The notes under the pieces are model-generated. The model saw only the letters and a program-made list of their open reading frames with translations. It was not told where the DNA came from and ran no database searches. A stretch of 64,000 nucleotides of DNA from assembly GCF_018309085.1 (NCBI RefSeq), contig NZ_CP070502.1:1116001-1180000 (forward strand), written 5' to 3'. The DNA comes from Sporosarcina sp. Marseille-Q4063 (lineage in GTDB: Bacteria; Bacillota; Bacilli; Bacillales_A; Planococcaceae). The position numbers and the translations under genes are program-made. Of the stretch, positions 45,908-61,906 are shown in pieces. Position 1 is the stretch's first letter; each line of letters starts with the position of its first letter.

Positions 45908-46210
45908 TTAAATATTCATTTTAACAATGCTTAGAATTTCTTCCTCTGTGAATCCCGTCAATTTGACGATTGTTTTTATTGGAAATTCTTCTTTGTACAT
46001 TTCTATAACTATTTCTGTCTTTCCTTCCTTAATGCCTTCTTGCTTACCTTCTCTCTTACCACTTTTCCATCCATCGGCTTCAGCATCTAGTTCCCTTTGA
46101 ATTTGATCATTCAAATGAATTTCACGAGCAATGGCTGCTTTACGCGTTTCCATGTCACCACTTAAACGTTGAATTTCGCTATAGGCTTCTTTCATAGTTG
46201 AACTTTCCAT
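45908..46210 (-). CDS. Predicted intragenic RpnS-like product of locus 1
   Basis: An in-phase frame starting at the ATG at 46210 behind AAAGGAGG (46219-46226), giving 100 residues. Its start MESSTMKEAYSEIQRLSGD corresponds to MESPTMREAFEEIDRLSQN in locus 2. The position relative to the nuclease core is the same. Confidence 0.55.
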   Translation of the reverse strand: MESSTMKEAYSEIQRLSGDMETRKAAIAREIHLNDQIQRELDAEADGWKSGKREGKQEGIKEGKTEIVIEMYKEEFPIKTIVKLTGFTEEEILSIVKMNI

Positions 46211-46804
46211 CGCTAATGCCTCCTTTGTTTCTTGGTCGCCTTTCATAAAAAGTAACCATTTTTCAAGTTTGGTCGCATCCTGAAGAATTAAGTTCTTCAC
46301 CTTTGATAATTCAAGCACATGGATTTCCATGTGAGATGAAAATAATGCACCATTTTCCGGGTCAATTAATTGAAACATACTTTGATAATGCGGTTTTCTT
46401 AGCATATTAAAATTGGTGATAACGATTTGAATCGCCTTATTAAGTTCTACGTACGACTTACCTTCTTTACCTTGAACTCCATACATTTTTGCCCAATAGA
46501 TGAGCATTCTTTCAGTGAAAGCCCTATGTCCTTTCAACTGCATCTCAACATTGATTTGTTCTCCAATATCCGTTAATATACGTAAATCCATTTCCGATTT
46601 TTTGTCATTGGCATGGGAAGGTTCGACATATGGGCTCGTCAACTTTACAGAAATAATTTGTTCTCCCAAAATGGCTCTTATGAAATCGAGTAGCAATTTA
46701 TTGTTCCGTTTATCGCCGAAAAAAGCTTTAAAAACAAAGTCATTTCGCAAATCCAGTAAGTCCAAACCATATTTACTTTCATTTTCTCGGAGTAGTAAAA
46801 CCAC
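45908..46804 (-). CDS. Rpn-family PD-(D/E)XK nuclease with internal C-terminal start (locus 1)
   Basis: 298 residues. The Rpn core is intact: LLDLRNDFVFKAFFGDKRN (about 15-33), SEMDLRI with the metal Asp, INVEMQLKGHRAFTERMLIYWAKMYG with E-x-Q. Rpn nucleases cleave DNA and act in recombination and phage defence. At residue 199 an internal ATG (46210) follows AAAGGAGG (46219-46226) at ideal spacing. This would give a 100-residue C-terminal product, as described for RpnS inside E. coli rpn genes. The C-terminus ends in a short helix-turn-helix-like IKTIVKLTGFTEEEILSIV. Confidence 0.88.
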   Translation of the reverse strand: MVLLLRENESKYGLDLLDLRNDFVFKAFFGDKRNNKLLLDFIRAILGEQIISVKLTSPYVEPSHANDKKSEMDLRILTDIGEQINVEMQLKGHRAFTERMLIYWAKMYGVQGKEGKSYVELNKAIQIVITNFNMLRKPHYQSMFQLIDPENGALFSSHMEIHVLELSKVKNLILQDATKLEKWLLFMKGDQETKEALAMESSTMKEAYSEIQRLSGDMETRKAAIAREIHLNDQIQRELDAEADGWKSGKREGKQEGIKEGKTEIVIEMYKEEFPIKTIVKLTGFTEEEILSIVKMNI

Positions 46805-46917: not shown

Positions 46918-47273
46918 TACGAGAATAACGGCATGCGCAACGAGAGCAACGAGAATAACGGCACACGATACGAGAGCAACGCAACTCAATACGAGCATAA
47001 AAACACCGCAAAACCCGGTCCGAGAATAAACCTAAGAGCAACGAGAATAACGGCATGCGCAACGAGAGCAATGGAGCTCGATACGAGAATAAAAACACCA
47101 CGAAACCCGTTGCGAGAACAAACCTATGAGCAACGAGAATAACAGCACGCGATACGAGAGCAACGTAGCTCGATACGAGAATAAAAACACCACGAAACCC
47201 GTTGCGAGAACAAACCTATGAGCAACGAGAATAACGGCACGCGATACGAGAGCAACGTAGCTCGATACGAGAA
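46918..47273. repeat. Tandem repeat, 92-bp unit, about 3.8 copies
   Basis: Units start at 46944, 47036, 47128 and 47220 (the last is partial), each opening GAGCAACGAGAATAAC. A partial copy precedes the first. The later units are almost identical. The core CGAGA recurs within each unit at positions about 7, 28, 49 and 78, so a 21-bp sub-period is visible. 92 is not a multiple of three and frames are open in several directions by composition, so it is not coding. It lies between two minus-strand genes (Rpn nuclease and DASS transporter). Confidence 0.92.
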
Positions 47274-47293
47274 TGTTAATTCAAAATACAAAA

Positions 47294-56627: not shown

Positions 56628-56647
56628 AAAGGTCTTTGATAAGTCAT

Positions 56648-56684
56648 CAAAAAAACTCAGCCATTTATGGGCTGAGTTTTATTT
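56648..56684. terminator. Terminator after the Rpn array
   Basis: AAAACTCAGCC / GGCTGAGTTTT with a short loop, T-rich on both sides. It closes the last orphan cassette (ends 56700) on the minus strand. Confidence 0.8.
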
Positions 56685-56699
56685 CGATAAATTACGTAA

Positions 56700-56969
56700 T
56701 TACTTTTCGATTGATTTTATAATTTCAGAGACATAGTCAGTTGGAAGCCCTACGTATTCCGCAACTTTTTCAGGAGCGATTCCAGCGGCATTCATACGAA
56801 AAACCACGTCCCGTTTCAATTTCTTCCTACCTTGAGCGACTCCATCCTCAAATCGTTGCAAAATATCTATTAACTCTTGTTTCCTGAAGTCTGCAAGTCG
56901 ACGCGTTTCTGGATTTTGGCTTAAACGTTCGATTTCTTCGAATGCTTCCTTCGTCGTTGGACTTTCCAT
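56700..56969 (-). CDS. Orphan Rpn C-terminal cassette 3 (RpnS-like)
   Basis: 89 residues from the ATG at 56969, with AAAGGAGG (56978-56985) nine bases away. It starts MESPTTKEAFEEIERLSQNPETRRLADF, as the C-terminal part of the full gene 57740-58648 does. From about residue 50 it diverges completely: RKKLKRDVVFRMNAAGIAPEKVAEYVGLPTDYVSEIIKSIEK, ending in a helix-turn-helix-like unit. The nuclease domain is absent. A short upstream remnant, FLKSDEKTKEALV, still matches the parent. Likely a stand-alone small protein, not debris. Confidence 0.75.
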   Translation of the reverse strand: MESPTTKEAFEEIERLSQNPETRRLADFRKQELIDILQRFEDGVAQGRKKLKRDVVFRMNAAGIAPEKVAEYVGLPTDYVSEIIKSIEK

Positions 56970-57005
56970 CACCAACGCCTCCTTTGTTTTTTCATCGCTT
57001 TTTAA

Positions 57006-57043
57006 AAAATCGTCTTCCCTCATTAATGGAAAGACGATTTATA
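57006..57043 (-). terminator. Hairpin between Rpn cassettes 2 and 3
   Basis: The minus strand shows AAATCGTCTTTCC / GG-AAGACGATTT followed by TTT: a terminator-like stem of ~11 bp. A close copy stands at 57373-57408 and a degenerate one at about 57672-57705, always in front of a cassette. Each seems to be the end of the previous unit, duplicated with it. Confidence 0.7.
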
Positions 57044-57068
57044 GGTATTTCTTTTAATTATAATATGT

Positions 57069-57338
57069 TTATTTTTCAATTGACTTAATAATATCCATGA
57101 CCTTTTCAGATGTAATTCTAGCGTATTTCGCAATGTATTCCATGGACATTCCATCTGTGTACATACTGTTTACCATCTCTCTTTTTTCCTGTTCGATTCC
57201 CTTTTTCCTTGCATCTTCTTCCCGTTGCAAAATATCTTTCAACTCTTGTTCCCTAAAATCCGCTAGACGACGCGTTTCCGGATTTCGGCTGAGACGGTCG
57301 ATTTCTTCGAATGCTTCCCTCATCGTAGGACTTTCCAT
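57069..57338 (-). CDS. Orphan Rpn C-terminal cassette 2 (RpnS-like)
   Basis: 89 residues from the ATG at 57338 (AAAGGAGG at 57347-57354). The first ~48 residues (MESPTMREAFEEIDRLSRNPETRR, then ADFREQELKDILQREEDARKKG) are almost identical to the parent gene. The tail differs: IEQEKREMVNSMYTDGMSMEYIAKYARITSEKVMDIIKSIEK. A longer frame upstream (to 57422) is the leftover parent sequence FKNGDKTKEALA and the hairpin. No nuclease domain. Confidence 0.75.
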   Translation of the reverse strand: MESPTMREAFEEIDRLSRNPETRRLADFREQELKDILQREEDARKKGIEQEKREMVNSMYTDGMSMEYIAKYARITSEKVMDIIKSIEK

Positions 57339-57372
57339 CGCCAACGCCTCCTTTGTTTTATCACCGTTTTTG

Positions 57373-57408
57373 AAAAATCGTCTTCCCTTATTGGAAAGAC
57401 GATTTATG
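57373..57408 (-). terminator. Hairpin between Rpn cassettes 1 and 2
   Basis: The arms AAATCGTCTT-CC / GG-AAGACGATTT, with a TTTTT run after them on the minus strand, copy the element at 57006-57043. Confidence 0.7.
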
Positions 57409-57411
57409 TGT

Positions 57412-57654
57412 TTATTCTTCAATTGACTTAATAATATTCATGGCCTTTTCTGGTGAAATTCTAACATTTTTTGCAATGTCTACTATTGACATACCATAAT
57501 GATAAAGGCTTATTACCGTCTTTCGTTTTTCCTGTTCAATGGCATCTGCTTCCCGTTGCAAAATATCTTTCAATTCTTGTTCCCTAAAATCCGCAAGATG
57601 ACGCGTTTCCGGATTTTGGCTTAAACGATCAATCTCTTCAAACGTTTCCTTCAT
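57412..57654 (-). CDS. Orphan Rpn C-terminal cassette 1 (RpnS-like)
   Basis: 80 residues from the ATG at 57654 with AAGGAGG (57663-57669) at the same nine-base distance. It lacks the first five residues of the other cassettes (starts MKETFEEIDRLSQNPETRH). Shared helix to about residue 40, then its own tail: AIEQEKRKTVISLYHYGMSIVDIAKNVRISPEKAMNIIKSIEE. An in-frame TTG two codons upstream is possible. It lies closest to the parent gene. Confidence 0.72.
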   Translation of the reverse strand: MKETFEEIDRLSQNPETRHLADFREQELKDILQREADAIEQEKRKTVISLYHYGMSIVDIAKNVRISPEKAMNIIKSIEE

Positions 57655-57739
57655 CGCCAACGCCTCCTTATAAAGGTAGAGTCGTCAACCCTCATTAAAT
57701 ATGGAAAGATGATTCTAATTATTATTTCTAATGATTTCT

Positions 57740-58021
57740 TTATTGTTTGAGTGACTTAACTATTTCTATAACCTTTTCCAAAGGGATTCGTACATTTATC
57801 GCAATGTCTTTTGGTGACATTCCAAAATTATTAAGACTAATTACTGTATCTCTTTTCTCTTTTTCAATCCCCATTTCCATGCCCTTTTCCCGTGCATCTT
57901 CTTCCCGTTGCAATATATCTTTCAACTCTTGTTCTCTAAAATCCGCAAGCCGACGCGTTTCTGGATTTTGGCTGAGACGGTCGATTTCCTCAAATGCTTC
58001 CCTCATCGTTGGACTTTCCAT
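57740..58021 (-). CDS. Predicted intragenic RpnS-like product of locus 2
   Basis: A frame inside and in phase with 57740-58648. It begins at the ATG 58019-58021 behind a perfect AAAGGAGG. The ribosome site is conserved, base for base, in the paralog and in three orphan copies, more than the protein code requires (KTKEALA could be written in other ways). In E. coli Rpn, such internal products bind and block the nuclease. Here that is inference. Confidence 0.6.
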   Translation of the reverse strand: MESPTMREAFEEIDRLSQNPETRRLADFREQELKDILQREEDAREKGMEMGIEKEKRDTVISLNNFGMSPKDIAINVRIPLEKVIEIVKSLKQ

Positions 58022-58648
58022 CGCCAACGCCTCCTTTGTTTTATCATCACTTTTCATAAATAATAGCCACCGTTCGAGTTCGCTTGCATCCATTATATTT
58101 TCAATTCGCAGTTTCGGCAACTCCAGTACATGAATCTCCAGGTGATCCGATAATAGTAAGTTGCTCTTTTTGTTGGCTATCTGAAAAAGATTATGATAAT
58201 CTTTCTCTTTTAATAAATTAAAATCAGTAATAATAATTTGAATTGCTTTCCTCAGCTGAGTGTATGGCCTGCTTTTATTGTCTTGACTTCCATACATTTT
58301 AGCCCAATAGATTAACATTCGTTCCGGAAAGGCTTGATGGTTTCCCAACTGCATTTCTATATTTATTTGTTCGCCTTGTTCCGTTCGAACTCGTACATCC
58401 ATGACAGAACTTTTATCTCCGGCATGTGTGTATTCTAGATGCGGATCTACTAATTCTATCGATGTAACCTGTACATCCAAAATTGAATTTAGAAACTGCA
58501 ACAATAAGTTTGAATTCCTTTTATCCCCGAAGAATGATTTGAAGACAAAATCATTGCGCAAGTCGAGCAAATCATATACACCGCGCCGTTCTTTCACGAA
58601 CATTGCCAAGACGAACACCACCGTTTCTTTTCTTTCATTATCGAACAA
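57740..58648 (-). CDS. Rpn-family PD-(D/E)XK nuclease, parent of the cassette array (locus 2)
   Basis: 302 residues. Core: DLLDLRNDFVFKSFFGDKRN (about 20-39), SSVMDVRVRTEQGEQINIEMQLGNHQAFPERMLIYWAKMYG with the D...E-x-Q set, then a helical middle part and the C-terminal segment MESPTMREAFEEI that starts at internal residue 210. An AAAGGAGG (58030-58037) sits nine bases before that ATG (58019-58021), giving a 93-residue internal product. About half the sequence matches the gene at 45908-46804, so the two are paralogs. Both strands of evidence support a functional nuclease with a built-in small product. Confidence 0.88.
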   Translation of the reverse strand: MFDNERKETVVFVLAMFVKERRGVYDLLDLRNDFVFKSFFGDKRNSNLLLQFLNSILDVQVTSIELVDPHLEYTHAGDKSSVMDVRVRTEQGEQINIEMQLGNHQAFPERMLIYWAKMYGSQDNKSRPYTQLRKAIQIIITDFNLLKEKDYHNLFQIANKKSNLLLSDHLEIHVLELPKLRIENIMDASELERWLLFMKSDDKTKEALAMESPTMREAFEEIDRLSQNPETRRLADFREQELKDILQREEDAREKGMEMGIEKEKRDTVISLNNFGMSPKDIAINVRIPLEKVIEIVKSLKQ

Positions 58649-61702: not shown

Positions 61703-61780
61703 GAACAGTTACAGGAGGTACTTCATGTATCTCCCCCTACTTTTCGTGAAATAGATTCTTCCCGAAGTGCAAAATTTATT

Positions 61781-61906
61781 ATATCCGCGCATTCGGTACG
61801 GATATCAGCAGAAATCCACATTATATCCGCACATTTGAACCGCATATCAGCAGCAATTCACCCTATATCAGCACATTTCACACTTATATCCGCAAAACAG
61901 GTCCTT
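61781..61906. repeat. Exact 21-bp-period tandem array, six units
   Basis: The core ATATC(C/A)GC starts at 61781, 61802, 61823, 61844, 61865 and 61886, exactly 21 bp apart. The rest of each unit varies around RCATTTSACMCT. The last unit is degraded. It lies between convergent genes and has no open frame of interest. 21 bp is two helical turns, so the cores face one side of the DNA. Confidence 0.88.

Follow-up and report, generated by a model that had tools for sequence, protein, structure and literature searches.

Three tandem stand-alone RpnS cassettes with diverged tails behind an rpn nuclease gene of Sporosarcina sp. Marseille-Q4063

The closest described systems to the locus reported here are the rpnE and rpnC genes of E. 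coli, which encode nuclease toxins (RpnL) with internally encoded antitoxins (RpnS) and are each directly followed by a single stand-alone RpnS copy that derives from the parent gene, namely ypaA (RpnES) behind rpnE and rpnCS behind rpnC (Zhong et al. 2023, PMC10327210; statements from this source refer to its main text and figure legends). Each of the five E. coli rpn genes yields an internal product, as does a C. difficile rpn gene when cloned in E. coli; RpnCL is blocked solely by RpnCS of matching repeat number (legend of Fig. 4D), and a mismatch of one repeat abolished RpnC neutralization (PMC10327210). We analyzed a window of 64,000 nucleotides (the whole stretch, positions 1,116,001 to 1,180,000 of contig NZ_CP070502.1) from Sporosarcina sp. 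Marseille-Q4063, whose 3.98-Mb genome is a single contig. Its rpn gene, rpnL, shares with the Rpn (YhgA-like) nucleases of PF12784/TIGR01784 the domain, the candidate catalytic residues, the variable tail of 4-residue repeats, and the internal start, and differs only by the array of tails behind it: three stand-alone copies with diverged tails, whereas the E. coli examples have one copy per locus. The locus extends the published arrangement of stand-alone rpnS genes directly downstream of a parent rpn (PMC10327210), and its novelty is therefore that of a variant. A sequence-only reading of this DNA had presented the orphan array as new, which was too strong because the kind has been known since the 2023 description of the rpnE and rpnC copies; new are the diversified three-copy array and a widespread uncoupling of repeat length between copy and neighbor.

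The parent gene, its internal unit, the three copies, and the intervening hairpins are as follows.

57740..58648, minus strand: rpnL (parent), Rpn-family PD-(D/E)XK nuclease, 302 amino acids from a TTG start (open reading frame; PF12784; TIGR01784)
57740..58021, minus strand: internal rpnS within the parent, 93 amino acids, ATG at 58021, Shine-Dalgarno (SD) sequence AAAGGAGG at 58037-58030 (in-frame SD and Met)
57680..57714, minus strand: degraded version of the copied hairpin, between parent and copy 1 (folding z -0.36, no better than shuffles)
57412..57654, minus strand: stand-alone RpnS copy 1, 80 amino acids, ATG at 57654, SD at 57670-57663 (open reading frame, shared SD/ATG)
57374..57404, minus strand: terminator-like hairpin between copies 1 and 2, with the copy 2 parental scrap and SD immediately behind it (folding z -5.15)
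57069..57338, minus strand: stand-alone RpnS copy 2, 89 amino acids, ATG at 57338, SD at 57354-57347 (open reading frame, shared SD/ATG)
57006..57039, minus strand: terminator-like hairpin separating copy 2 from copy 3 and joined to the copy 3 parental scrap (folding z -2.65)
56700..56969, minus strand: stand-alone RpnS copy 3, 89 amino acids, ATG at 56969, SD at 56985-56978 (open reading frame, shared SD/ATG)
56645..56680, minus strand: strong terminator-like hairpin 3' of copy 3, of different sequence (folding z -6.86)

The parent matches PF12784 (PDDEXK_2) with an E-value of 4.5e-52 and 177.5 bits (curated cut-off 27.4) and TIGR01784 with an E-value of 1.1e-41 and 143.5 bits (curated cut-off 52.1); it would be 287 amino acids long if the ATG at residue 16 were used instead of the TTG. 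Its candidate catalytic residues, D84, E98, Q100, and R110, correspond to RpnA D63, E82, Q84, and R94 by motif assignment; the E-Q-R spacing is that of RpnA, whereas the D-E spacing is 14 rather than 19. A 187-nucleotide unit occurs in the parent and in each of the three copies at spacings of 369, 331, and 352 nucleotides, with 67-100% identity to the reference copy, and this fourfold occurrence is far beyond chance. All four cassettes carry (A/T)AAGGAGG, 8 spacer bases, and ATG. The proposal that three downstream frames begin at an in-frame internal SD and ATG of the parent is thus borne out, all four SD/ATG pairs being found and the units lying in register; the geometry is identical in the four cassettes as claimed, with a spacer of 8 bases and not 9.

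The copies carry the RpnS domain without the nuclease domain; the final part of TIGR01784 is recognized in copies 2 and 3 as well, at scores under the cut-off. In their first long helix, the number of 4-residue repeats varies: relative to the parent, copy 1 is 8 residues shorter and also lacks five residues near its start, and copies 2 and 3 are each 4 residues shorter, copy 3 having the most diverged tail. The tails differ from copy to copy, as had been noted, and are diverged homologs by alignment rather than unrelated modules. An AlphaFold2 model of copy 2 is all-helical (mean predicted local distance difference test score, 91.4); a Foldseek search against the PDB gave nothing at E ≤ 0.001, and RpnAS (7TH0, a three-helix dimer) was not among the matches listed.

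Immediately before copies 2 and 3 lies a T-run hairpin joined to parental sequence (FFKNGDKTKEAL or FLKSDEKTKEAL). The parental scrap KTKEAL, expected before each copy, is whole before copies 2 and 3 and reduced to KEALA in copy 1; likewise, of the copied hairpins, only the one preceding copy 1 is degraded, the other two being intact. A consensus terminator scan lists none of the four hairpins, and terminator-like here denotes a stem followed by T residues. In Sporosarcina jiandibaonis (locus L003), the parental code at the scrap point reads TTATTGTTTTTGAAAAGCGATG, which suggests that the first duplication may plausibly have arisen through short homology between the T-runs of the hairpin and of the LLFLK codons.

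In the rpn genes compared, an in-frame SD with an internal Met is general. A cassette-start Met is present in 36 of 38 distinct full-length rpn genes among the loci examined; a properly spaced SD of 5 or more bases accompanies it in 35 of the 36, compared with 5.7 expected after synonymous recoding. Each copy in the window may be translated into a small dimerizing RpnS protein.

The hypervariable 4-residue-repeat helix differs in length between copy and parent in 14 of 15 pairs from Bacilli, drawn from genome collections with one genome per species. Copy minus parent amounts to -8, -4, and -4 residues in the window, and elsewhere to -28 (L079), -8 (L080), -12 and -4 (or -8) (L096), -4 and +24 (L097), -4 (L098), +8 (L099; net +4 by another alignment), +4 (L100), -32 (L084), and -4 (L149); the lengths are equal in L076. 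The L080 copy is identical to its parent at 99 of 102 aligned residues, yet two repeats are missing. The L084 pair is counted although its parent is interrupted, with nuclease domain and cassette in different frames, and without it 13 of 14 pairs differ. The count leaves out the degraded L098 second copy and L101, the copies of L102 and L103 that include part of the nuclease domain (differing by -4 and -24), L075 (two copies differing by 4, with no adjacent parent), and L004 (parent with an in-frame stop). Three of four metagenome pairs differ as well (-8, +4, +12, and one equal); these pairs were inferred to share a contig from equal source and equal contig size, and P0022 (57 amino acids, truncated), P0104/P0013 (not clearly one subfamily), and P0009/P0014 (no parent seen) were set aside.

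The same pattern is seen in E. coli. RpnE and YpaA are equal in length in 0 of 12 strains (8 distinct length pairs), and RpnC and its stand-alone copy in 0 of 7, three of the seven differences not being multiples of 4 (-14, -10, and -14). The rpnE sample comprises K-12 and 12 of the 40 rows listed, most of which had two matching places, and 12 of the 13 have a stand-alone copy; the rpnC sample comprises 8 of 50 listed rows, chosen for two matching places, of which 7 have both genes. By the rule taken from RpnC, a cognate antitoxin has the repeat number of the neighboring RpnL, and none of the three window copies does. Because of these mismatches and the same-repeat rule, most stand-alone copies should be unable to neutralize their neighbor, which disfavors the plain reading of the copies as antitoxins for the parent. 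We did not find a parent-copy repeat mismatch stated in the main text of PMC10327210 (its Supporting Information lies outside this statement), and literature searches on the topic gave no other paper on stand-alone RpnS among the matches listed.

A second line of evidence concerns the tails. The S. jiandibaonis Rpn protein is 86% identical to the window parent, and that genome has a single rpn gene, with the same downstream surroundings but no stand-alone copies. The repeat helix of this protein is as long as those of copies 2 and 3. At sites where the window parent and copy 1 differ, its core is parent-like (11:3) and its tail is copy-1-like (27:10; Fisher p 0.0013); core and tail trees agree with this mosaic, with modest support of 0.80 and 0.76. 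Directly behind the hairpin of this gene lies a short piece (L003:4951-5003) that resembles by eye the rpn N-terminal domain (IELNNPHLEYT) and is possibly a remnant of a longer array or of a second rpn copy. In E. coli ATCC 11303, which has no ypaA, RpnE ends in the ypaA tail; loss of a stand-alone copy through such a tail fusion has been described (PMC10327210). Furthermore, in 8 of 75 full-length relatives the tail reaches a score of 90 or more against one of the window tails, the nearest being copy 2 in seven, copy 1 in one (the S. jiandibaonis protein), and the parent in none; copy-type tails therefore end full-length nucleases elsewhere. Taken as sequence comparisons, these cases indicate that tails move between copy and nuclease, and the suggestion in the sequence-only reading that copies act as donors for tail swaps gains support from the L003 mosaic and the ATCC 11303 fusion.

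Substitution ratios among the cassettes are low. Nei-Gojobori pairwise ratios of nonsynonymous to synonymous substitution (dN/dS) are 0.22 for copies 1 and 2, 0.17 for copies 1 and 3, and 0.27 for copies 2 and 3; parent-copy values are 0.14-0.21 (0.15-0.22 with another alignment, the first having begun one codon ahead of the ATG for copies 2 and 3 and one codon past it for copy 1). The six window pairs thus span 0.14-0.27 overall, well below 1, and 0.02-0.20 in the core. Values are 0.11-0.50 over 14 parent-copy pairs of Caryophanaceae and 0.12-0.29 over 9 E. coli rpnE pairs. Under neutral simulation, a cassette stays open in 35% of runs with 30 changes and in 26% with 40 changes, so that one open copy counts for little and three open copies together count for more. 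With the shared internal start, intact frames, and low dN/dS, the description of the copies as duplicated, diversified RpnS-type cassettes stands.

We tentatively favor, at somewhat less than an even chance, the reading that the locus is an rpnL/rpnS gene-within-a-gene with three further tandem RpnS units, the copies being re-specified RpnS paralogs that serve also as tail donors. The RpnS unit (SD, internal ATG, C-terminal domain, and terminator-like hairpin) would have been multiplied into three further tandem copies, which, through changed repeat-helix length and diverged tails, would have ceased to pair with the neighboring RpnL as the internal RpnS does. They might then act as RpnS partners of other Rpn variants and also donate DNA, recombination between similar cores joining the nuclease and core of the parent to the tail of a copy. 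A tail swap would alter toxin and built-in antitoxin together, and the new gene would therefore stay self-consistent. The locus thus suggests a route by which a toxin with an internally encoded antitoxin could shift its specificity while avoiding a lethal intermediate. Stand-alone RpnS genes resemble additional copies of the antitoxin; if repeat length is uncoupled in Bacilli and E. coli, that role needs a direct test, for which the published RpnC assay is suited.

Several points weigh against this reading of re-specified paralogs and tail donors. The same-repeat rule is established in RpnC only. Random pairing of the E. coli lengths gives 0.5 expected matches and a probability of 0.59 for none, so that repeat number is decoupled and not shown to be selected to differ; selection for anti-matching was rejected, as random pairing gives the same outcome in E. 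coli. K-12 RpnE is annotated as inactive and its ypaA as a pseudogene, and in other strains the ypaA or RpnCS copies examined are either flagged as pseudogenes (missing N terminus) or mostly labeled hypothetical; given these annotations, the E. coli mismatch could reflect relaxed selection. Pairwise dN/dS cannot place constraint on the branch of a copy. The mosaic test of the S. jiandibaonis gene is not significant with copies 2 and 3 (p 0.25 and 1.0), and its mosaic with copy 1 could also have arisen if the tail of the window parent diverged after an L003-type tail was duplicated. One full-length relative, P0036, which is 80% identical overall, has a tail nearest to the window parent, with a score of 80, below the threshold of 90. 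Transcription might be terminated at the hairpins before it reaches copies 2 and 3. Finally, every RpnL already has its own RpnS, and extra immunity requires a special situation such as plasmid loss or unequal expression.

Extra dosage is an alternative that we consider unlikely. Here, the copies would bind and restrain the neighboring RpnL despite the difference in repeat length and raise its activation threshold. The retained RpnS start and core, the synthesis of YpaA/RpnES protein in E. coli (PMC10327210), and the pairs of equal length (L076 and metagenome P0047/P0018) are consistent with this. Set against it are the mismatches in 14 of 15 Bacilli pairs and in 19 of 19 E. coli strain-locus cases, together with the loss of RpnC neutralization upon a one-repeat mismatch (PMC10327210).

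We also doubt that the copies are decaying by-products of tandem duplication through short direct repeats (the T-runs of the hairpin and of the LLFLK codons) that drift and are lost. Degraded copies occur elsewhere (L098 second copy, L101), the start region of copy 1 is incomplete, S. jiandibaonis has no stand-alone copies, K-12 ypaA bears its pseudogene annotation, and 17 of 40 listed E. coli rpnE rows have a single matching place. By contrast, the window retains three open frames with SD, jointly less probable under the neutral simulation than one, and its pairwise dN/dS of 0.14-0.27 and the synthesis of YpaA protein (PMC10327210) argue against decay.

Type I restriction systems hold spare specificity cassettes for their HsdS subunits. 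The window resembles them in its variable tail, the 4-residue repeats in a helix, the extra tail copies beside the gene, and the natural recombinants, and differs in that its repeats are direct rather than flanking inverted repeats: HsdS-type inverted repeats do not surround the cassettes, the sole inverted pair reported being 21 nucleotides at 86%, with arms between parent and copy 1 and inside the parent. The HsdS of EcoR124 has 4-residue TAEL repeats (cited in PMC10327210), and a DNA-recognition role of the Rpn tail has been put forward only as a suggestion (Kingston 2017). By this analogy, and with rather low probability, the array may be a store of specificity cassettes in which RpnL would read DNA with its C-terminal helix-turn-helix head, head spacing in the dimer would be set by the 4-residue repeats, as it is by the TAEL repeats in EcoR124, and the copies would be alternative heads, selected as small proteins and recombined into the parent through the conserved core. 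If so, toxin and antitoxin being the same DNA, one swap would re-target the nuclease and re-key the antitoxin. It is most improbable that the stand-alone copies are DNA-binding regulators repressing rpn promoters through a C-terminal helix-turn-helix.

Orphan antitoxins are known as anti-addiction modules of type II toxin-antitoxin systems, in which an antitoxin without its own toxin could neutralize a foreign relative. The window differs in that the antitoxin is part of the coding sequence of the toxin itself and the copies adjoin a relative with another repeat number. The earlier comparison with orphan tips of polymorphic toxin loci is loose: those arrays hold alternative toxin tips with paired immunity genes, whereas the window copies carry the RpnS domain, their tails being the antitoxin/helix-turn-helix part and not a toxin tip.

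Stand-alone cassettes directly behind an rpn frame with a nuclease domain are present in at least 8 of 261 genomes of the family (G000, G041, G076, G111, G125, G134, G215, and G256). A second cassette occurs in G111 (with a stop noted), G125, and G256 (degraded), and three copies were seen only in the window among the family loci examined. An order-level search, over 261 genomes as in the family search, added nothing, and a class-level profile search of 398 genomes gave one more adjacent pair (G427) among the matches listed. Among the 12 genomes of the genus (own included, of 68 searched) with the flanking gene of the locus, which we take to be DUF438, an rpn match within 1.5 kb was found only in the source genome itself and in G008.

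Other forms were also observed. A Sporosarcina metagenome-assembled genome (L004:4010-5216) has an rpn frame interrupted by an in-frame TAG immediately ahead of the cassette; the cassette itself is intact and has its own start, and a second stand-alone cassette, starting with TTG, follows it. At L102 and L103 (G118:C2), the downstream copies comprise part of the nuclease domain plus the cassette, as intermediate-length duplicates with differing repeat number. A solitary stand-alone cassette with a 122-codon frame (L038/L094; G041:C11, ~715047-715500) has an SD that begins ~20 bases after the second of two visible clustered regularly interspaced short palindromic repeats (CRISPR), GTCGCACTCCTTGTGAGTGCGTGGATTGAAAT, presumably of type I-C; its tail and repeat number are nearly equal to those of the full-length metagenome Rpn P0046. 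P0006, P0014, and P0015 are metagenome proteins of stand-alone size whose tails come closest to that of copy 3; an 8,129-base contig is reported for both P0009 and P0014.

The window holds two further features of this kind.

58092..58120, minus strand: promoter-like site TTGCCG-17-TATAAT inside the parent, ~70 nucleotides before the internal ATG (10/12, consensus match only)
45908..46804, minus strand: second rpn gene, 298 amino acids, at a separate locus (open reading frame and domain search)

The promoter-consensus scan gave 12 sites in the region, compared with 6.6 ± 3.0 in shuffles. No stand-alone RpnS copies were found beside the second rpn gene. PADLOC gave zero matches for the three proteins scanned. 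PHROG 3300 (annotated as transposase, integration and excision) is matched by the parent (57743-58648, E-value 6.9e-18), copy 2 (57072-57338, 2.6e-05), and copy 3 (56703-56969, 3.1e-05), from which it follows that Rpn-type genes also occur in phages. A tandem array of a 92-bp unit (46919-47274, 3.6 copies) lies between the second rpn gene and the next gene upstream, and a 42-bp tandem repeat of 2.4 copies is present at 61778-61894.

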